Below, piece by piece: positions 262 to 10,105 of a stretch of 10,105 nucleotides of DNA; position 1 is the stretch's first letter, and every line of letters begins with the position of its first letter. A program made the position numbers and the translations under genes. Below the pieces are notes generated by a model, which did no database searches, was not told the origin of the DNA, and worked only from the letters and a program-made list of their open reading frames with translations. Origin of the DNA: Nitrospinota bacterium (GTDB taxonomy: Bacteria > JADFOP01); assembly GCA_022562795.1 (NCBI GenBank), contig JADFOP010000057.1, positions 1 through 10,105 of the forward strand, given 5' to 3'.

Positions 262-552
262 TCAGGGAGTCACTTGGTCGCTGACTTCGCTAAGTGCCGG
301 CAGATCCAAGTCTGCGTTGTGCCAGATATCCGCAAGTGCGGTATAAGTTTCGCGGGATGCGGCCGCATTGCCGGTTCCGGCATTGGCGCGCGCCAGTCCC
401 AGTAGTGACTTAGTGCGCATCAGGGATCGCGAAAGGTGGTCCTGATAGGCAAGGGATGCTTGGCCAGCTCGGCCGAGCCCGAGAAGAACGCCTCGGTCAC
501 CTCGGATCAACGGCGCCAACGCGGTAATATCGAGATCGGTGAGGTCGGTCAT
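262..552 (-). pseudogene. C-terminal fragment resembling a TPR-repeat protein
   Basis: This 96-codon frame ends in a helix-turn-helix pattern typical of the last repeats of tetratricopeptide proteins. The motifs SLLGLARANAGTGN (near residues 50-63) and the following ETYTALADIWHNADLDLP fit the common ending 'LxGLARAxxxxGDxxxAxxxYxxLxxxWxxADxDLPxL'. The apparent ATG at 552 sits directly at a rearrangement joint with galE, only 3 bases from a 23-bp tandem duplication, so the true N-terminal part is probably missing rather than naturally this short. There is no signal peptide or ribosome binding site of its own. The first 30 residues are weakly repeat-like (LLGLGRAGQASLAYQDHL resembles a TPR A helix). 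The family call is inferred from pattern only; function is unknown and the fragment is probably non-functional. Confidence 0.4.
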
Positions 553-1453
553 GCCGCCACCTCGGCGGGAATGGCGACGCCACCTCGGCGGGAATGGCGA
601 TGCCGCTGGCAGTTTCTACAGCCGCGACCACCTCCTTGACTGATGCGCCTTTCTTGGTACCGAGATTGATGCTAGTAGTGGCCCCTCCTTGAGCCAGCCA
701 ATCCATGGCTAGGAGATGGGCTCTTGCCAGGTCCACCACGTGGATGTAGTCCCTAACACAGGTGCCGTCGTGGGTGGCGTAATCGTCCCCGTAAATTTGC
801 ATGGGTTCAGGGGCGGACTCACGGCGGCCGTCCCCGTGTGCGGCGGCGGCCTGGGCTACCCGCAGAATTCTGGGAATAAGATGGGTCTCCGGGTCGTGGT
901 CTTCGCCGAGGTCATCCTCCCAGTTGGCCCCCGCTGCGTTGAAGTACCGCAAGCTTACCGATCGTAGGCCGTAGGCCGCATCGGCGTCCCGTAAGAGTTG
1001 CTCGGCTATGTGCTTGCATCGACCGTACGGGGAGATGGGCTCCAGGGGATGGTCTTCCGGGATGGGAACCTCGGTGGGATTACCGTAGACCGCCGAGGAA
1101 GAGGAGTAGACCAAATTGGGCACCCCGTGGCGTTGCATTGCAGCAACCAGGGTGTGGGTCCCCACCACATGGACCTCGTAGTAGGGAAGCGGATCTTCCA
1201 TGGAATCACCCACCGCGGTGGGGCCGGCCAGGTGGACGGCCCCGGAGATGGGGCGGTTCCGAAAGATGGAGTCGAGTAGGTCTGAGTCGGTAACGCTGCC
1301 CACTACGAGTTCGACGTCCCTGACGGCCTCTCGATGGCCGGTGGAGAGGTCGTCAAGAACTATGCACGGGATATTTGCCTTGGTCAGCTCTTGGACAATG
1401 TGGGAGCCTATGTAACCGGCTCCCCCAACGATGAGAAGCGTTCCTTGTTCCAT
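497..1453 (-). pseudogene. galE: UDP-glucose 4-epimerase, C-terminally truncated
   Basis: This is an extended SDR epimerase of the GalE type, which interconverts UDP-glucose and UDP-galactose (or the N-acetyl forms) in the cytoplasm using tightly bound NAD. The Rossmann NAD motif GGAGYIGSH is at residues 10-18. The Ser-rich strand VYSSSSAVYG is at 115-124, catalytic YxxxK is Y143-K147, LRYFNAAGA is at 168-176, and RDYIHVVDLA is near 234-243. The normal protein is about 330 residues. Here similarity stops at residue 282 (IPAEVA), where the family normally continues with an ARRxGD-type UDP-binding segment. Instead a 23-bp tandem duplication shifts the reading into 36 unrelated residues rich in Arg and Pro. 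The Asn usual in the YYxxN motif is His (YYEVH, 91-95). The start ATG at 1453 gives the standard N-terminus, though no good Shine-Dalgarno is visible. Loss of the C-terminal substrate-binding part makes activity doubtful. Confidence 0.85.
555..600. repeat. Perfect 23-bp tandem duplication at the galE break
   Basis: Bases 555-577 and 578-600 are identical 23-mers lying head to tail. The unit begins CGCCACCTCGGCGGG on the plus strand. It lies exactly where galE similarity ends and the TPR-like fragment begins. With only one copy, the galE frame would stop at a TGA overlapping the ATG of the next frame; the extra copy shifts galE into a longer aberrant tail. The repeat may be a slippage product, a repair scar or an assembly artefact. 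Confidence 0.95.
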
Positions 1454-2925: not shown

Positions 2926-2954
2926 GGGCTAGGCTCCCTACCCGCCTTTTTTTT
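2926..2954 (+). terminator. Rho-independent terminator of the M24 gene
   Basis: GGG-C-TAGG (2926-2933, one bulged C) pairs with CCTACCC (2937-2943) around a CTC loop, giving seven base pairs. GCC and eight consecutive T residues follow (2947-2954). It begins 8 bases after the peptidase stop codon and reaches into the last codons of the opposing methyltransferase gene, where the T-run encodes Lys-Lys. The reverse orientation has no good T-run. Confidence 0.75.
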
Positions 2955-3600
2955 CCAGCTCGAATAAGATCACAGGGCAGAAAGGGCTTTTTAGGAGCCC
3001 GATTCGGTGGAGCCGTACAGGGTGGAGCCCCGTCCCCTCAAGGGCCCCCTCCAGCTCTGAGGTTGAGTAAGTCTTGAGGCGATGGGGAAGAGTGGGATCG
3101 TGCCAATGCAGGAGTCGGAACCTCAAGACGGTTGGGAGGTTCCATCGGTTCCTGATGTCTATCAGGCAGCGGCCGCCGGGCTTGAGGACGCGGGCCATCT
3201 CCAGCAAAAAGGTGCGTATGACGGCCATGGAAGGTAGGTTGTAAAGGGTGTTTAAGCAGGAGGCCGCTTCAAAGGTCCCGTCCGGGAAAGGGAGAGCTTC
3301 GGCCCTGGCGCTCACCAAGTGGGCCGCGGTGCCTCCATGATTGTCCAGGTAGGTTCGCGTGAAGGAGCGAAGCTGGTCCGTGGCGTTGTCGATCCCCACC
3401 GTATAGAGATTAGGTGCGGTGAGGGCAAGCTCTTCTAAGAAGAACCCTCTGCCGCAGCCAATCTCAAGGAATCGGCCTGAGGCGCCAACAAGGGCCAGGG
3501 CTGCGCGGTGCCGGACACGAGGCTGGTAGAAGCCCCGTGCAATGCCCTCCCGGGCCGTCAGGCCTCTCACCGCCCTGAACAGCTTTGGAATCATGGTCAC
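2938..3600 (-). CDS. Class I SAM-dependent methyltransferase
   Basis: This small Rossmann-fold methyltransferase of the Methyltransf_11 type (about 220 residues, normal length) is predicted cytosolic. Motif I LEIGCGRG (residues 45-52) binds S-adenosylmethionine. VGIDN (68-72) is the acidic-loop strand, EALPFPDGTFE (101-111) is the motif III region, and LKPGGRCLIDIR (139-150) is the post-motif strand. The acceptor cannot be read from sequence; its place at the end of a glycan operon suggests a sugar, a lipid-linked glycan or a small precursor. The furthest start is GTG 3600; ATG 3594 is an equally good choice and loses only two residues. No strong Shine-Dalgarno precedes either. Immediately upstream lies the wreck of a GDP-mannose dehydratase-type gene, so translation may once have been coupled to it. 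The C-terminus (KKGG) overlaps the terminator of the facing peptidase gene. Confidence 0.9.
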   Translation of the reverse strand: MTMIPKLFRAVRGLTAREGIARGFYQPRVRHRAALALVGASGRFLEIGCGRGFFLEELALTAPNLYTVGIDNATDQLRSFTRTYLDNHGGTAAHLVSARAEALPFPDGTFEAASCLNTLYNLPSMAVIRTFLLEMARVLKPGGRCLIDIRNRWNLPTVLRFRLLHWHDPTLPHRLKTYSTSELEGALEGTGLHPVRLHRIGLLKSPFCPVILFELEKKGG

Positions 3601-3620: not shown

Positions 3621-3791
3621 TTACTTATGCCTCTGGCTTATTGGCGATGACTCTGCGCCAGTAGTCCAGAAAATCGCACAATGTCTCCTCCAGCACCTAA
3701 TCCCGTAGATATCCAAGCCTTCCATCTCAATTAACAGCTCCACCAAGTGGCGGCCGGCGAAACCGGTAATTCCGGTTATCATAACCTTCAT
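3621..3791 (-). pseudogene. Internally deleted GDP-mannose 4,6-dehydratase/reductase remnant
   Basis: ATG 3791 opens with MKVMITGITGFAGRHLVELL, an NAD(P)-binding start typical of GDP-mannose 4,6-dehydratase (Gmd) and GDP-4-keto-6-deoxymannose reductase (Rmd). After about 31 codons (near 3699) homology breaks off. In a different frame the DNA then encodes VLEETLCDFLDYWRR followed by eight more residues and a TAA at 3625-3627, which is the characteristic C-terminal end of the same family. About 260 middle codons, including the YxxxK catalytic site, are missing. The original frame runs into a stop at 3621. The ATG overlaps the TGA of the wecA-like gene upstream (ATGA, 3788-3791), so the ancestor was a translationally coupled operon member, probably making GDP-rhamnose- or GDP-fucose-type sugars. 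The fragment cannot be active. Confidence 0.75.
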
Positions 3792-5008
3792 GGGGCATCA
3801 TCCTCGGCTTCGTCAGGCGCCACAGACGAAACCGTGTGCTCCCCTTCGGTTGATACGGGGGATTGTCGCTCTTTGTCGTTCTCCCGTCTCCAACGGGTCA
3901 CGTTCTCCAGGATGGTCACCAGTAGTAGAATCACGACTGCCTGGACAATCAGCAGTAAGGCGTCCCTCGTTTGAGCATTGCGCAGGACCGTGGAGGTCAG
4001 TCCCAGACAGAAGGACAGCAGTAAAATGAACAGCACGCTCTGGCGCGGGCTGTCGAGCACCTCCGCCAGACGGTGGTGCAGATGGTCCTTTCCCGTGTAT
4101 TCCAACCACTCCCTTATGGTCGAGATCTTTCCAGTGTAGAACCGGGCTATTGTGGTATGGAACATATCGAAAATGAGCACGCTGAATATGAGCAAAGGAG
4201 CGGAAATGGAGACAATGGGGTTTTGGTGCGCCCACTCACCCAGCACTGCCAAGCAGGCCAGGGCGAAGCCGAGGAAGGTGCTCCCGGTATCGCCCAGGAA
4301 GATGGTTGCGGGCCCGTTGAACCGAAAGTTGTAGGGCATGAAGCCGACCGAGGCTCCGAAGATGGCGATTGCCAGCCATCCAAGGTAGGGCTGGTTGGTC
4401 TGGAAGGCCAGGATCCCCAAGAAGAAAGAAATGACGGCGGCCAGCCCCGGGGCGAGACCGTCCATTCCGTCGAAGAAGTTCATGGCGTTCGTGATACCGA
4501 CGATCCAAATAATCGTGAGTGCGCCGTTGACCAGCGTGCTGCCTATCCAGGCCTGGGGAATCAGGACGAGGGTCACCCCGCTGGCCATGACAATGGCTGT
4601 TGCCACTAGCTGGGCGGCGAGCTTGGTCCGGGCACCTACGCCTACAACGTCGTCGATGACCCCTATGACGACGACAATCGTGCTTCCGATAAGGATACCC
4701 TTGATCTGCGGGATGAAGAGGAAGTTGGCGAAAATCGAGCACGTGAAAGCGATATAAATGGCCAGGCCTCCCATCAGCGGCGTCGGATGGACGTGCACCT
4801 TCCTGGAGCTTGGGATATCTACGACATCGAGGGCCGAGGCCCCGGAGCGGACCACTGGGGTCAGGAGATAGGAGATGGCGAAGGATAAGCCGAGGATGTA
4901 GGCCGACCTGAGGCCCCATGCAGTGAGGAGGTGTTTTGTGTAGGGAAGCAGGAGGGCTATTAACAAGCCCAGTACCGAATAGTAGGTGGTCCTCTCAGTA
5001 GAAGTCAT
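3788..5008 (-). CDS. Polyprenyl-phosphate sugar-1-phosphate transferase (WecA/TagO/MraY family)
   Basis: This integral membrane enzyme transfers a sugar-1-phosphate, commonly GlcNAc-1-P, from a UDP-sugar to undecaprenyl phosphate. That is the first membrane step of O-antigen, capsule or teichoic-type glycans. About ten or eleven hydrophobic segments span its 406 residues, within the usual size range. Family motifs are clear: TPLMGGLAI (76-84), the Mg-binding GVIDDVVG with D119/D120, NAMNFFDGMDGLAPG (174-188) with D180 and D183, FLGDTGSTFLGF (237-248) with D240, and the cytoplasmic HLHHRL (309-314). The HHR motif favours the WecA/TagO branch over MraY, which makes lipid I. After the last membrane pair there is a charged cytoplasmic tail of about 40 residues rich in Asp and Glu. 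It starts 21 bases after the PIG-L stop with only a weak GGGG upstream, so it is probably read by coupling. Its stop overlaps the ATG of the dehydratase remnant. Confidence 0.93.
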   Translation of the reverse strand: MTSTERTTYYSVLGLLIALLLPYTKHLLTAWGLRSAYILGLSFAISYLLTPVVRSGASALDVVDIPSSRKVHVHPTPLMGGLAIYIAFTCSIFANFLFIPQIKGILIGSTIVVVIGVIDDVVGVGARTKLAAQLVATAIVMASGVTLVLIPQAWIGSTLVNGALTIIWIVGITNAMNFFDGMDGLAPGLAAVISFFLGILAFQTNQPYLGWLAIAIFGASVGFMPYNFRFNGPATIFLGDTGSTFLGFALACLAVLGEWAHQNPIVSISAPLLIFSVLIFDMFHTTIARFYTGKISTIREWLEYTGKDHLHHRLAEVLDSPRQSVLFILLLSFCLGLTSTVLRNAQTRDALLLIVQAVVILLLVTILENVTRWRRENDKERQSPVSTEGEHTVSSVAPDEAEDDAP

Positions 5009-5029: not shown

Positions 5030-5647
5030 CTAGTCCACGTTTACAAAAAGGCGAAGCGGGATAAACCCTTCGGCATTTTTCACTCGACCCTGGATGCCTC
5101 GGAAATGCGCTGCCGAGCGAGCGAAGTCCACAATCGTAAGCCCCTCAATGTTGGTCTTCGTCACCTGAGAGGCGTGGGCCTCCAGACAGGCGAGCTTATC
5201 CTCTAGCTCATTCTCTATATCGGTGAACACGGTGGGGGCGAAGTTTTGTGTCGTGGGGACCTCGTAGAATAAGACGTTCTTGATGTATCGAGTAGCGGAG
5301 GTGGTGACCTTAGAGAGGGCGCGGTGGTCTTGATGGGTGTCGTCAAAATAGTGGACGAAAATGATGTTGGGGCTGACGACTTTGATGACATCCTCGATGC
5401 GAGATATCAGCTCTTTGTCAAGAGGCAGCTTGGTGTCCGGGTATTCGAAGATAAACAGGTCCGTAGCACCCATAATCTGGGCCGAGCGCCTGAGCTCCTT
5501 AGCCCGCACATTTCCATCGCCGCCTTGATCCCCATGTGTCGCGACGAGGAGGTAGACCTTGTGGCCTTGGCGCGTGTACTTGATGAGGGTGCCGCCGCAG
5601 CCGAACTCGATGTCGTCAGGATGAGCGCCTACGGCTAAGATGTTCAC
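5030..5647 (-). CDS. PIG-L (LmbE-like) family N-deacetylase
   Basis: This soluble zinc-dependent amidase removes acetyl groups from N-acetylglucosamine-type sugars or related conjugates. Diagnostic features are the N-terminal AHPDD motif (residues 8-12; H9 and D12 bind zinc, D11 is the likely general base) and HQDHRAL (105-111), which supplies the third zinc ligand. THGDQGG (38-44) and EYPDTKLP (68-75) are also family-typical. The length of 205 residues is normal. Translation starts at GTG 5647, which overlaps the TGA of wbqC (GTGA), and GGGAG (5660-5656) precedes it by 8 bases. Placed between wbqC and a WecA-like transferase, it may deacetylate either a nucleotide-activated amino sugar or the undecaprenyl-linked sugar made by the next gene. 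BshB-, MshB- or antibiotic-type substrates cannot be excluded from sequence. Confidence 0.9.
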   Translation of the reverse strand: MNILAVGAHPDDIEFGCGGTLIKYTRQGHKVYLLVATHGDQGGDGNVRAKELRRSAQIMGATDLFIFEYPDTKLPLDKELISRIEDVIKVVSPNIIFVHYFDDTHQDHRALSKVTTSATRYIKNVLFYEVPTTQNFAPTVFTDIENELEDKLACLEAHASQVTKTNIEGLTIVDFARSAAHFRGIQGRVKNAEGFIPLRLFVNVD

Positions 5648-6336
5648 AGGAGAGTCTCCCTGGCTCGGCGGACCAACTCAAATCCTCCCTTTCCGCAGTT
5701 GAAGAGCAAGTCAATGGCGGCCATAGCGGGTTCAAAGTGTTCAAAACATTGGGGATAGACCGGGTGTGTAAACTCTTGAAACTCGACGGCGATCTTCGCT
5801 TCTTCGAACATTTTCATATCCATATAGTTTCTTCCCCCCACGCCTGCGAGGTAGGTCTCTGCCTCCAGGGCCTTGCAGAGGTCAATAAGCCGTGCCGTGG
5901 GCTCCTGATGGGTTTCAAAGGATGAGGCCAGGTGTACTGGGGTCACGATACCAAAGGCTTCCTTGAGGTATGTTAGGGTATGGAGGCAGAGTTCTACGAG
6001 CTTTGGCCATAGCTTGACATAGGTGTCGGTAAGGAAGGGCAGGTGCTCCATAAAGTGAGGTGCGCGGCCGTAGTTGAGCTTGAGCGCTTGTAGGTGCTTC
6101 CGGCTCCATGTCTGCTCGTTGTCGATGGTGACCTCGAGCAGGGGCGCTTTGTAAGCGCTCTTGACCGGAACTGTGAGCCACGTCCAGCCGTCGGCCGTCC
6201 TGATGCGGTTGCGGTTCTGGTGCTCCCGCCTGACAAACTGGACCGTATCGAGTACGACAAAGGCATCAGCCCTGTCAAGCTTATCCAGGTAGCCAAGCCA
6301 GGGGAGGTAGTGAGGTTGGTGGATAGCAACAATCAT
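5644..6336 (-). CDS. WbqC-like family protein
   Basis: The protein begins with the WbqC signature IHQPHYLPWLGYLDKL (residues 5-20), followed by DAFVVLDTVQFVRRE and QNRNRIR (40-46), and has the usual length of about 230 residues. Family members are found across O-antigen and polysaccharide clusters. Their biochemical role is poorly defined; involvement in amino-sugar modification or acylation has been suggested from context, not from this sequence. It is predicted soluble, with no signal peptide or membrane segment. It is the first gene of the minus-strand operon, transcribed from a likely promoter at 6408-6436, and its stop overlaps the PIG-L start by 4 bases. The ATG at 6336 gives exactly the family N-terminus but lacks a visible Shine-Dalgarno, so initiation may be weak or depend on leader structure. 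Confidence 0.9.
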   Translation of the reverse strand: MIVAIHQPHYLPWLGYLDKLDRADAFVVLDTVQFVRREHQNRNRIRTADGWTWLTVPVKSAYKAPLLEVTIDNEQTWSRKHLQALKLNYGRAPHFMEHLPFLTDTYVKLWPKLVELCLHTLTYLKEAFGIVTPVHLASSFETHQEPTARLIDLCKALEAETYLAGVGGRNYMDMKMFEEAKIAVEFQEFTHPVYPQCFEHFEPAMAAIDLLFNCGKGGFELVRRARETLL

Positions 6337-6464: not shown

Positions 6465-6659
6465 TTGCTAATATCCTCCCGGCGTGGGGCGGCGAAGAGA
6501 GGGTTGGGCAAAATCAAGACCGTAGCCATCGGACGGGCCATCAACAATGCGGTTTATCTCGGGCTGTTGGGGGTTCTACTAGCCGGCCTAGGCTACGGGG
6601 TCAAAGCGGCATTGGTGGCGACAGTCCTCCTCATACCTTGGCCTAGCACGGAGAGTTGA
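6465..6659 (+). CDS. Doubtful small hydrophobic ORF
   Basis: This 64-codon frame from TTG 6465 contains a strongly hydrophobic run (VYLGLLGVLLAGLGYG and LVATVLLIPW, residues 29-60) preceded by a basic stretch (RRGAAKRGLGKIK). It therefore reads like a one- or two-pass membrane peptide or the tail of a lost transporter. The frame is open back to a stop at 6441. There is no clear Shine-Dalgarno and no recognised family. It overlaps the 3' end of the opposing glycosyltransferase gene by 17 bases. It may be a remnant or a chance frame in GC-rich DNA, but it is the only coding candidate in the gap 6337-6642. Confidence 0.2.
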   Translation: MLISSRRGAAKRGLGKIKTVAIGRAINNAVYLGLLGVLLAGLGYGVKAALVATVLLIPWPSTES

Positions 6660-9024
6660 GGAGGTCTCTATAGACCTGATCAATCCCGTCGAGCATAACC
6701 TGGTGTGAAAAGCGTTCCCGAACCCGCTGGGGCCCGGCTTCCCCCATCCTGCGGCGGGCGGTCTCGTCTTCGAGGAGCTGGAGGATGGCGCTTGCCAAGG
6801 CCTGGGGATCTTCTGGTGGGACGAGTAAACCTGTGACCCCGTCTTCGACGACCGACGGCAAGCCTCCCACGGCTGTTGCCACCACCGGTCGGCCGCAAGC
6901 AAGCGCTTCGACGGCGGCCCTGCCCATCCCCTCGTTCCGGGATGGGAGTACCGAGAGGTCAAAGACGTGGTAGAGGGGTTCTAGACGCTCCTGCCAGCCG
7001 AGGAAGAGCCACCGTTCGGCCACACCCAGGCGGCGGGCTTGATCCTCCAGGGCCCTTCGTTCCTGTCCATCGCCCGCGACCACAAACCAGGCGTCAGGTC
7101 TGTCCCGCAGCACTATGGCCGACGCCTCGACAAGTTGGTCGTAGCCTTTGACCCGGTCCAGTCTCCCGACGCTGCCCACGACAGGCCCGCTTTGAGGCAG
7201 GCCCAACGTGGCCCGCACTGCTGGCCCCTCCTCGGCTGGGAGGGAGCCAAAACCCTCCAACTCCACCCCACTAGGGATGACCCTGAACTTCTCCTTAGGG
7301 GCGATCCCCCAAGCCACATGCTCCTCTACGCCTATGGGCGTGAGCGTGATGATGGTGTTGGTGATATGAGCCGTTAGGCGCTCGGCGTAGACGAAGAGCC
7401 GAGAGAGGGCGGGCCGGTAGTATCCGGTAAAGACGTGGCCGTGGGGTGTGTGAACCAGGTGTCGGCAGCCAGCCAGCCGGGCAGCCCACCGGCCCAGGAT
7501 GCCCGCCTTGGAGGAGTGGGTGTGTACTAGATCGAACCGTTCGCGCCGGAACATCCGATAAAGGGCCCAAAAGGCCTGCAGGTCAGCCAGGGGGCGGATG
7601 GCCCGAAGGAGGCTCGGAAGAAAGCGAACCGTGATGTCAGGGCGCTCCTTCAGGCGGCGCACAAGGGGCGAGGGAAACGTTGTCATGCCTGTAACGAGGG
7701 TTACACGGTAGCGAGCCGGATCGAGGCCCAGAACCGTCAGGAGGGTGTTATCGGTTGAGCCGCCCCGGTCGAGACGGGTGATGATGTGGGCGACCTTCAA
7801 GGGCTTGGATTCAGGTCTATCTTTTGTAGCCTCGTACCAGGGCAGAACCTCAATTGGGGGTGGGGATTTGTCTCGGGCGAGGAGCTCTTCCGCTGCTTCT
7901 ATGACGGCCTCCGAGGAGATTTGGGACAATGGGGCTCCGGCAGATTCGGGCGCCTGCAGCCGATAGAGGGCCGGGTCGGTATACGGTGCATAGGCTTGGA
8001 GGAGTTCGGTAGGATAGCAGGCGACGATGGGGGTGCCGACCGCTGCGGCGATATGGAGAGGGCTTGAGAGCACACCGAGAAAAAGATCACACTTTTGGAG
8101 AAGGGCCGCCGCCGCTCGAAGGGGAAGACCTCCGGCCGCGACGATGGCGTTGCCAGGGAGCATGTCAGCGAAACTCTTGGCCGCTTCAGCATCCTGAGGC
8201 CCGCCGAGGATAACAAACGTCCCTCCGTGGATGTCCGACAGCGCTTCGGCCGACTGGGCCCAGGAGGAGAGGGGCCATTGGCGACCGGAGTCTTTGACCC
8301 AAGGGTGTATGGCGATGAGCGGGCGACTTGGCGGCCCGTGGGCGGCCAGGAAAGTGTCGGCGGCTCGGCGACTTTCTTGAGACAGCGGTATCGTCAGTGG
8401 GCCAGAGTCCGCAGCACATCCGAGGGCTTCTAACAAGGCCAGGTTCAGTACGACCGCATTGCGGGAGTCGGGCCAACCCTCAGATGTCCGAACGTGGAAG
8501 GCCGCTGCCCGCCCGTCGGTATCCCGTCCGGCCCGGTAGGTCGCTCCGATGGACTTTAGCAGAAATCCCATCAGCAAGGCGCCTCGAAGAGAAGAGATCT
8601 GCACGAAATTGACGGCCAGATCGAAGCGCTCACGCCGAAGCCGTTGCCAGGTCTGCCAGAGGTGGCGCAGACCCTCGGGGCGACACCAGCCCCACCGCTT
8701 TCCGTAGATAAGGAGGTCGATGTCGAGCGGAACAATAGCATCAACCGCCGACCATCCTTCCAGGATATCCTCCGCCCGGCGGTTTACAAGTAGGACGATG
8801 CGAGCATCGGGGTAGCATTTGCGAAGGGCGCGGAGGGCAGGTGTGGCCAGAAGGCAGTCCCCTATTCCCGCTACCAAAGTTACCAGGATTTTATTTACAC
8901 GAGCAGGAGGCGATTTAGGCCTGCCTAGGGTTCGTCTAAGAAGGGCCAGAATAGCCCTTTCCGGGATGCGTATCACAGTACGTGGCCTCGCCTCTAACCC
9001 GTGATCATTCCTTAAGTAGCCCAC
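6643..9024 (-). CDS. Fused GT9 heptosyltransferase-like / GT4 glycosyltransferase
   Basis: One 793-residue frame carries two complete GT-B glycosyltransferases. Residues about 44-385 are GT9 (ADP-heptose:LPS heptosyltransferase type): KILVTLVAGIGDCLLATPAL (45-64) with the catalytic-type D56, a donor-domain stretch VKDSGRQWPLSSW (243-255), and PLHIAAAVGTP (322-332). The usual (N)DSG before PLH is replaced by VLSS (318-321), losing the conserved Asp. Residues about 386-408 form a Pro/Lys-rich linker. Residues 409-793 are GT4: VAHIITRLDRGGS (411-423), HTHSSKAGILGR (501-512), HTPHGH (525-530), GSVGRLDRVKGYD (617-629), and the EX7E motif E698-E706 in SRNEGMGRAAVE. There is no membrane segment; the enzyme is probably cytoplasmic at the inner membrane. 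GTG 9024 has GAGGG (9035-9031) six bases upstream, supporting the start. It is likely to add successive sugars to a lipid-linked or LPS-core acceptor; the exact donors are unknown. Confidence 0.92.
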   Translation of the reverse strand: MGYLRNDHGLEARPRTVIRIPERAILALLRRTLGRPKSPPARVNKILVTLVAGIGDCLLATPALRALRKCYPDARIVLLVNRRAEDILEGWSAVDAIVPLDIDLLIYGKRWGWCRPEGLRHLWQTWQRLRRERFDLAVNFVQISSLRGALLMGFLLKSIGATYRAGRDTDGRAAAFHVRTSEGWPDSRNAVVLNLALLEALGCAADSGPLTIPLSQESRRAADTFLAAHGPPSRPLIAIHPWVKDSGRQWPLSSWAQSAEALSDIHGGTFVILGGPQDAEAAKSFADMLPGNAIVAAGGLPLRAAAALLQKCDLFLGVLSSPLHIAAAVGTPIVACYPTELLQAYAPYTDPALYRLQAPESAGAPLSQISSEAVIEAAEELLARDKSPPPIEVLPWYEATKDRPESKPLKVAHIITRLDRGGSTDNTLLTVLGLDPARYRVTLVTGMTTFPSPLVRRLKERPDITVRFLPSLLRAIRPLADLQAFWALYRMFRRERFDLVHTHSSKAGILGRWAARLAGCRHLVHTPHGHVFTGYYRPALSRLFVYAERLTAHITNTIITLTPIGVEEHVAWGIAPKEKFRVIPSGVELEGFGSLPAEEGPAVRATLGLPQSGPVVGSVGRLDRVKGYDQLVEASAIVLRDRPDAWFVVAGDGQERRALEDQARRLGVAERWLFLGWQERLEPLYHVFDLSVLPSRNEGMGRAAVEALACGRPVVATAVGGLPSVVEDGVTGLLVPPEDPQALASAILQLLEDETARRRMGEAGPQRVRERFSHQVMLDGIDQVYRDLLNSPC

Positions 9025-9534
9025 GTTCAGCCCTCTTTTTCAGCCTACATTGTCCGGGAAGCTCTTAACCAAATACAACCCACGGTCTCTCGGCCCATAC
9101 TGCTCATGGTGTGTGCCAGGACCCCGATTTTGTAAACTTGGCACGTATCCCGGTCACCAGTCTGCCGCCAACACCAACTCCAACCACAAGCAGCTTGAAT
9201 TTCCTGAGAGGCTTGGCGCAACGCCGGGAGCGCGGGAATACATTACATAATGATGGACCGTTGTCGAATAGGTCAAGGAGAGGCAGATGGGACGAATCAG
9301 CTCTCGGGATAGGCCTAGGAAGCCTATCCAGGTGCCAATGAACAAGTCCATGACACGGAAGGACAAACCCAGAGAATGAATATAGAGCTTCCGAAAATTG
9401 CGTTCGAGAGTTCTAGTCACCTTCAGGGCCTCATCAGCAGGGTCCGGCTCGCAAGGAAGGACCCCTCGGGGCGCACCAGGTCTCAGGCCTTCGGGAAAAG
9501 CCACGTTTGGATGGTAGAAGACGGTTTCTTCGCC
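9025..9534. other. Gap of about 510 bases without a convincing gene
   Basis: A 116-codon minus-strand frame (9154-9504, GTG start) covers much of this gap, with one mildly hydrophobic stretch (MDLFIGTWIGFLGLSREL). It has no recognisable motif, no ribosome binding site and an unusual composition, so I do not call it. The 5' side contains the Shine-Dalgarno of the fused glycosyltransferase (9031-9035). A TTTACA (-35-like on the minus strand near 9130) has no matching -10. A perfect hairpin sits at 9307-9329, and a short GAAGA/TCTTC stem (9517-9531) lies just past the stop of the next gene. A decayed gene cannot be excluded. Confidence 0.5.
9307..9329. repeat. Perfect 8-bp inverted repeat with 7-base loop
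   Basis: GGATAGGC (9307-9314) and GCCTATCC (9322-9329) are exact reverse complements around the loop CTAGGAA. No T-run follows on either strand, so it is not a standard terminator. It lies in the gap between the membrane protein and the fused glycosyltransferase, where a processing site or regulator site would be possible. Confidence 0.4.
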
Positions 9535-10105
9535 TCATTGACCTAGGTGTGCTGAAACAATCGTCGACAATTTGATCTGCTTTAAACATGCTCTTGTATG
9601 ATAGGCACACCAATTGGCAATACCAAAGAGCTTGGTCCCATCTTCAGCGAAGGTCCCCCCGGGGAAATAAACTAGTTCTAGATCGATCATTATTGAAAAC
9701 CCAAAGAAACCGAAAGCAATGAGCAAAAGAAGATATTCCGTGTTAAGCAATGTTTTACTAAAGCGTATCAGGTAAAGGGCTACTATAATTCCATATAAGG
9801 AGAGAATTACCTTTTCAGCAATTTGGGAGTAGCGAGTTAAGAATTCATGCATGAGGAAATAATCATCAATAAGAAGAACGGACGTTATCAAGCCTGAGCA
9901 GAGGAAGAAGTACGACCATTCTCGATTGTGCAGATCATTCCTAAGCACCACGAAACTAAAAAGGCAAATCGCTGCGGAAAAACACCAAAGTACAAAACCA
10001 ATTTTTTGGGCAACCCCAAGGTACAGTGGGGCTTTCATGACCTCTACTGGATCGCGGAAAAGGTGCGGCATAGGGACGCCGTATCGCAACCTTATGATGA
10101 GAAAC
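9535..10105 (-). CDS. Multi-pass membrane protein of unknown function (5' end outside window)
   Basis: The frame is open to the right edge; the first candidate start inside the window is TTG 10089, but upstream codons contain no stop, so the gene probably begins outside. About 184 visible residues contain four hydrophobic segments, numbered from that TTG: KIGFVLWCFSAAICLFSFVVL (29-49, described here as a segment), WSYFFLCSGLITSVLL (58-73), VILSLYGIIVALYLIRF (94-110) and EYLLLLIAFGFFGFSIMID (118-136). Polar features recur at segment ends: IDDYFLMHEF (74-83) and EDGTKLFGIANWCAY (149-163). This layout resembles a group of hypothetical membrane proteins I have seen in other bacteria, with a DD-x-FxLHE-type motif after the second segment, but I know no function. 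Acidic and His residues in the loops could bind a metal or substrate; this is speculation. Its base composition is clearly AT-richer than the genes to the left, suggesting separate origin. Confidence 0.7.
   Translation of the reverse strand, partial: FLIIRLRYGVPMPHLFRDPVEVMKAPLYLGVAQKIGFVLWCFSAAICLFSFVVLRNDLHNREWSYFFLCSGLITSVLLIDDYFLMHEFLTRYSQIAEKVILSLYGIIVALYLIRFSKTLLNTEYLLLLIAFGFFGFSIMIDLELVYFPGGTFAEDGTKLFGIANWCAYHTRACLKQIKLSTIVSAHLGQ

Follow-up and report, generated by a model that had tools for sequence, protein, structure and literature searches.

Gene content of the locus and the fused reading frame

The stretch of DNA that was analysed, here called the window, is 10,105 nucleotides long and represents one entire contig (C57) of a Nitrospinota genome. 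A single long frame encodes a GT9-type and a GT4 glycosyltransferase module and is accompanied by further genes of a polysaccharide cassette. The features are:

6643..9024, minus strand: fused coding sequence GT9-linker-GT4, 793 amino acids (open frame and Pfam)
7876..9024, minus strand: GT9-type GT-B module, residues 1-383 (Pfam, motif alignment and model)
7801..7875, minus strand: linker, residues 384-408, of low model confidence (models and congener comparison)
6646..7800, minus strand: GT4 module, residues 409-793 (Pfam, motifs and model)
5644..6336, minus strand: WbqC-like protein, the next gene of the cassette (Pfam)
5030..5647, minus strand: PIG-L family deacetylase (Pfam)
3788..5008, minus strand: WecA/MraY-type polyprenyl-phosphate sugar-phosphate transferase, PF00953 (Pfam and NCBIfam)
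2938..3600, minus strand: SAM methyltransferase (Pfam)
8798..8854, no strand: stretch of 57 bp that exactly matches the end of contig C5 from this genome, G000:C5:80690-80746 (contig comparison)

A GalE-type epimerase gene lies at 497-1453 (minus strand); its match to TIGR01179 covers only positions 2-284 of 332, and a truncation or frameshift near position 500 seems to affect the C-terminal end.

The long frame begins with a GTG at 9024 and ends with a stop at 6643-6645. Its translation from the minus strand has no internal stop, while the plus strand has many stops across 6643-9024. A preliminary description of the window, which gave no strand, had proposed a single 793-codon frame with no frameshift, composed of two complete GT-B enzymes and a linker at about residues 386-408, and all three points were borne out. 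The exact start is uncertain, because residues 1-11 are disordered in the model and a second GTG is present at codon 17 (8976), which may be the true start of the protein.

Three Pfam domains score above their cut-offs: Glyco_transf_9 (PF01075) at residues 123-350 (E 2.3e-22, 80 bits against a cut-off of 22), Glyco_trans_4_4 at residues 422-586 and Glycos_transf_1 at residues 604-766 (E 1.8e-45, 155 bits). The match to TIGR03088 (XrtA-system glycosyltransferase) reaches 189 bits against a curated cut-off of 409. The two halves were aligned and modelled separately, and the models carry no relative placing of the modules. A MAFFT alignment of the complete fusion together with single-domain homologues was discarded: it set GT9 proteins on the GT4 half and scored the GT9 of a congeneric species, which is 62-63% identical, at 22%. 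Both halves are confidently modelled and are predicted to be complete GT-B folds, with a mean pLDDT of 90.6 for the GT9 half (residues 1-401) and 93.6 for the GT4 half (residues 401-793). The nearest PDB structures are the GT9 protein 3tov, WaaF (1psw) and WaaC (2h1h) for the former and MshA, BshA and PimB' for the latter. The final well-formed helix of the GT9 model stops at residue 383, confidence falls thereafter, and the first GT4 strand starts from about residue 409, which places the linker at residues 384-408. Internal initiation of a free GT4 protein at the TTG within 'PLK' (around 7800) is unlikely, because no Shine-Dalgarno-like sequence was seen just upstream of this codon.

The locus in a congeneric genome and the probable assembly junction

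One genome of the same genus (G001, contig C66) was available for comparison. Collinearity with the window extends to both sides of the GT9/GT4 junction, and DNA identity is about 78% along most of the alignment and 72% at the GT9 end. There, a separate gene, closed by a stop, encodes the GT9 (383 amino acids), which is 62% identical to the GT9 half of the window, while the GT4 orthologue (80% identical) occupies the C-terminal half of an 863-codon frame, with another GT4 as the N-terminal half (GT4a-GT4b). The congener thus shares locus, cassette, GT4 and GT9 with the window but differs in the N-terminal partner of the GT4. The junction measures 69 nucleotides in the window (7810-7878) versus 1,276 nucleotides in the congener, and the difference is roughly what the additional GT4 takes up. 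From these two genomes, the simplest reading would be an in-frame deletion of a GT4 in the lineage of the window, or an insertion in the lineage of the congener. The fusion itself rests on one assembly, and the sole close relative does not have the same fusion.

Between window and congener, dN/dS (NG86) is about 0.23 for the GT9 half and about 0.15 for the GT4 half, indicating that both halves are under purifying selection in a comparison that spans fused and unfused states. These values argue against decay of one half and, together with the 62% and 80% identities of the proteins, exclude a chance open frame. Among the matches listed, those that come next in similarity to the GT4 half are stand-alone proteins of 387-410 amino acids (53% identical in G139, 51% in G355, 50% in G050 and 45% in G044), which presumably makes the unfused state the ancestral one.

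Separate GT9 and GT4 genes are also found side by side, in the order of the window. In G093 the stop of the GT9 gene and the start of the GT4 relative nearly touch (GCATGAATGA), and in G008 the ends of the two genes apparently overlap (TTGA); both pairs are confirmed by Pfam. The GT9 and GT4 frames of G360 overlap, and in G095 one methyltransferase-like gene lies between the two. Coupled neighbours of this kind could probably be fused by a small change. The idea that such enzymes have separate genes elsewhere is correct for the GT9 of the congener and for the adjacent pairs of G093, G008 and G360.

A cassette with the order export protein, Wzc, ligase/polymerase-like protein, one or more glycosyltransferases, GT4, WbqC, PIG-L and WecA is kept in other lineages. 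That of G044 starts with an export protein, a Wzc-like kinase, a ligase/polymerase-like protein, a GT4 and then the relative of the window GT4, and continues with a metallohydrolase-like protein, WbqC, PIG-L, a DegT aminotransferase and a WecA-like protein; the congener has the same order with the GT9 in place. The ligase-like gene scores slightly under the Pfam cut-off (29.5 against 31.7 bits), and the locus stretches examined revealed no ABC transporter. By its gene families, we take the cassette to be an exopolysaccharide or O-antigen setting.

The 57-bp match at 8798-8854 affects the N-terminal coding region of the GT9. Contig C5 ends at this match, within the start of a second GT9, of which 62 codons are present (87% identical to those of the window). 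Exact matches between the end of one contig and the interior of another usually mark a branch in the assembly graph, and 8798-8854 is probably such a junction. The first 75 or so codons of the GT9 and the kilobase upstream are thus ambiguous and could belong to two GT9 copies or to two strains. The two GT9 5' ends (window 8798-8989 and G000:C5:80555-80746) have 90% DNA identity, join at the 57-bp match and may represent either a partial duplication or strain variation.

This raises the question of whether the fused frame is an assembly chimera, put together from pieces of two GT9 copies or two strains. Besides the end of C5, there are two observations in favour: C5 bears the genes found ahead of the GT9 in the congener (export protein, Wzc-like, ligase-like), and window 9072-10105 matches only short fragments elsewhere in the genome. 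This last region contains, at 9535-10104 (minus strand), the open-ended gene of a membrane-type protein (at least 189 amino acids) that matches nothing in Pfam or NCBIfam and lacks homologues in the congener and in G002. However, the ambiguity is confined to codons 1-75 and the sequence upstream, and the GT9 start encoded is the same in both versions. Neither the linker nor the GT4 half is matched at the level of C5 by any other contig of the bin, and on the GT4 side homology to the congener is unbroken and gene order is the same. This supports, at the level of sequence and without proof from read depth, that the linker is not implicated in an assembly join, and we consider a chimera very unlikely.

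The GT9 upstream regions of the window and of C5 start to be homologous at a dispersed element, TGTA(G/T)TGGTTAAGA(G/A)CT(T/C)(C/T)CCGGAC, located at window 9051-9077 (minus strand). The genome of the window has four copies of it (window, C5:80532, C22:32741 and C35:23169) and the congener has two, with one mismatch (C22:35169 and C772:2482); both orientations occur. The element is absent from G002 and has no Rfam match. It may be either a regulatory site or the end of a mobile element.

Active-site motifs of the two modules

Both modules were described earlier as retaining most core motifs, which is true of the GT4 half but only in part of the GT9 half. By alignment, the GT4 half retains the glycine loop (G421/G422), R621, K626 and the E-x7-E pair E698/E706. 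It belongs to the GT4 family (PF00534/PF13439) by profile, by GT-B fold and by the E-x7-E and Arg/Lys phosphate-binding residues, and the GT9 half belongs to its family (PF01075) by profile, GT-B fold and catalytic base.

In the GT9 half, D56 (8857-8859) corresponds to the catalytic base D13 of WaaC and is an Asp in all 45 aligned matches; E280 and H324 correspond to the conserved E222 and H266 of WaaC. Two other positions are changed. R248 replaces Lys192 of WaaC, as it does in the GT9 of the congener, and L319 (8068-8070) is found at the position of D261, which is an Asp in 34 of the 45 aligned GT9 matches. D261 and H266 delimit the heptosyltransferase signature D(T/S)(G/A)XXH (PMC3559599), which is absent from the GT9 half (LSSPLH, L319 to H324). 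In WaaC, the D13A mutation reduces activity about 4,700-fold and D261A about 2,000-fold (PMC5713226).

The GT9 half also stays below the NCBIfam cut-offs for heptosyltransferases I, II and III (63.4/185.3, 54.8/134.6 and 102.8/170.2 bits). The term heptosyltransferase-like calls for caution: the GT9 half has its fold and catalytic base in common with WaaC and WaaF but not the signature, and on its sequence the module should be labelled a GT9 member rather than a heptosyltransferase. Its donor is probably not bound in the fashion of typical ADP-heptose transferases. ADP-heptose itself is probably present, because HldE domain II is encoded in the genome.

The main alternative to a GT9 half that transfers a sugar is that it is no longer a transferase and only binds or positions the acceptor for the GT4 half. 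The replacement of the signature Asp and of Lys192, in window and congener alike, would fit this, but we regard it as unlikely for several reasons: the GT9 half retains D56 as the catalytic base, H324 and a well-formed donor domain; the dN/dS of this half is low, albeit across fused and unfused states; WahF heptosyltransferases have a Ser at position 261 instead of the Asp and are still active (PMC3559599); and the unfused GT9 of the congener carries the same change (LSGPLH), so the loss of the Asp is not a decay caused by the fusion.

Transferase fusions in other genomes and proposed function

The frequency of related fusions was surveyed in two lists, the about 150 best GT9 matches from 290 genomes and the about 150 best GT4-half matches from 386 genomes. 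The GT9 matches include a GT4-GT9 fusion of 700 amino acids (G286, L079:1050-3149), a GT2-GT9 fusion (G076), and a lipid A acyltransferase-GT9 and a GT9-ELM1 fusion in one genome (G089, L078:1568-3523 and L077:3045-5240). Among the GT4 matches are GT2-GT4-GT4 triple fusions in two genomes (G341, L108:3132-6584, and G071, L109:2945-6604), with frames of about 1150-1220 codons and a C-terminal module related to the window GT4, as well as the GT4-GT4 fusion of the congener and a frame of 940 codons with GT4, formyltransferase and polysaccharide deacetylase/DUF3473 (G241, L110:4943-7762). Further cases are a GT2-GT4 fusion (G031) and GT4-GT4 fusions in G059 and G002.

Some long frames were rejected. 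An open frame of G033 with a reported length of 1032 that appeared to be a GT9-GT4 fusion has several stops between the genes on translation; those of G196, G327 and G287 were left out because the N-terminal portions match no Pfam family and could be non-coding; and the long frame of G139 (C2) consists of a GT9 only, with seemingly untranslated sequence upstream.

Transferase fusions are therefore frequent in the sampled genomes, and the rarity implied by the preliminary description was not confirmed. As to architectures with both GT9 and GT4 domains, the survey yielded the fusion of G286, which likewise has both domains in one frame but in reverse order, with distant sequences and with the usual Asp in its GT9 half (PDSAPMH). 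No second GT9-first fusion was found among the matches listed. A literature search for GT9-GT4 fusions found no relevant description, a weak result given that subscription journals were mostly outside its coverage. The fusion of the window is real but mostly ordinary, and fusions of this type arise repeatedly between neighbouring genes.

Glycosyltransferase polymerases with several modules, such as WbdA, WbbB and WbbM, are well established (PMC11231755), and together with KpsC (PMC10148158) they exemplify chains with several GT modules in the pathways to O-antigen and capsule. As far as the accessible text of these two papers goes, all four resemble the window fusion in having at least two GT modules per chain in a pathway to a cell-surface polysaccharide, and none is described as GT9 plus GT4. 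The window fusion, with two complete GT modules in a polysaccharide locus, is of the same dual-module type by architecture; its locus has WecA-, Wzc- and ligase-like genes.

The two enzymes might simply act as if they were separate, the single chain being without functional consequence. In favour are the ease with which adjacent coupled genes can fuse, the many fusions of this kind and the different partner in the congener; against it, the repeated occurrence of multi-transferase chains in these pathways may hint at some benefit, and we judge a neutral fusion distinctly improbable. The reading to which we lean, if only slightly, is a genuine dual-module transferase of a lipid-linked exopolysaccharide or O-antigen-type pathway that derives from fused neighbouring genes and adds two sugars in succession. 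The GT9 gene and the GT4 gene of one cassette would have become a single reading frame, either through in-frame loss of an intervening GT4, which the congener retains, or through direct read-through between coupled neighbours. A bifunctional protein is plausible on these data: the two modules would add two consecutive sugars to an undecaprenyl-linked repeat unit, the GT4 step would be a retaining transfer and the fusion would hold the acceptor close. The WecA-type initiating enzyme belongs to the same cassette.

The general picture does not change, as chains with several transferases were already established; what is added is a documented GT9-GT4 order with the GT9 first. The most interesting aspect of the fusion is the difference in partner between two congeneric species at one locus. 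A more speculative reading, which we consider rather unlikely, is that within this one genus the C-terminal GT4 is fixed while its N-terminal partner has been swapped (GT4 versus GT9), and that the GT9 half, which lacks the heptose-contacting Asp, takes a donor other than ADP-heptose. If this is true, a single in-frame deletion would alter the sugar before the GT4 step and hence the polysaccharide repeat. The same GT4 with two partners at one locus in two related species offers a usable natural test of whether module fusion sets the sugar sequence in polysaccharide synthesis.
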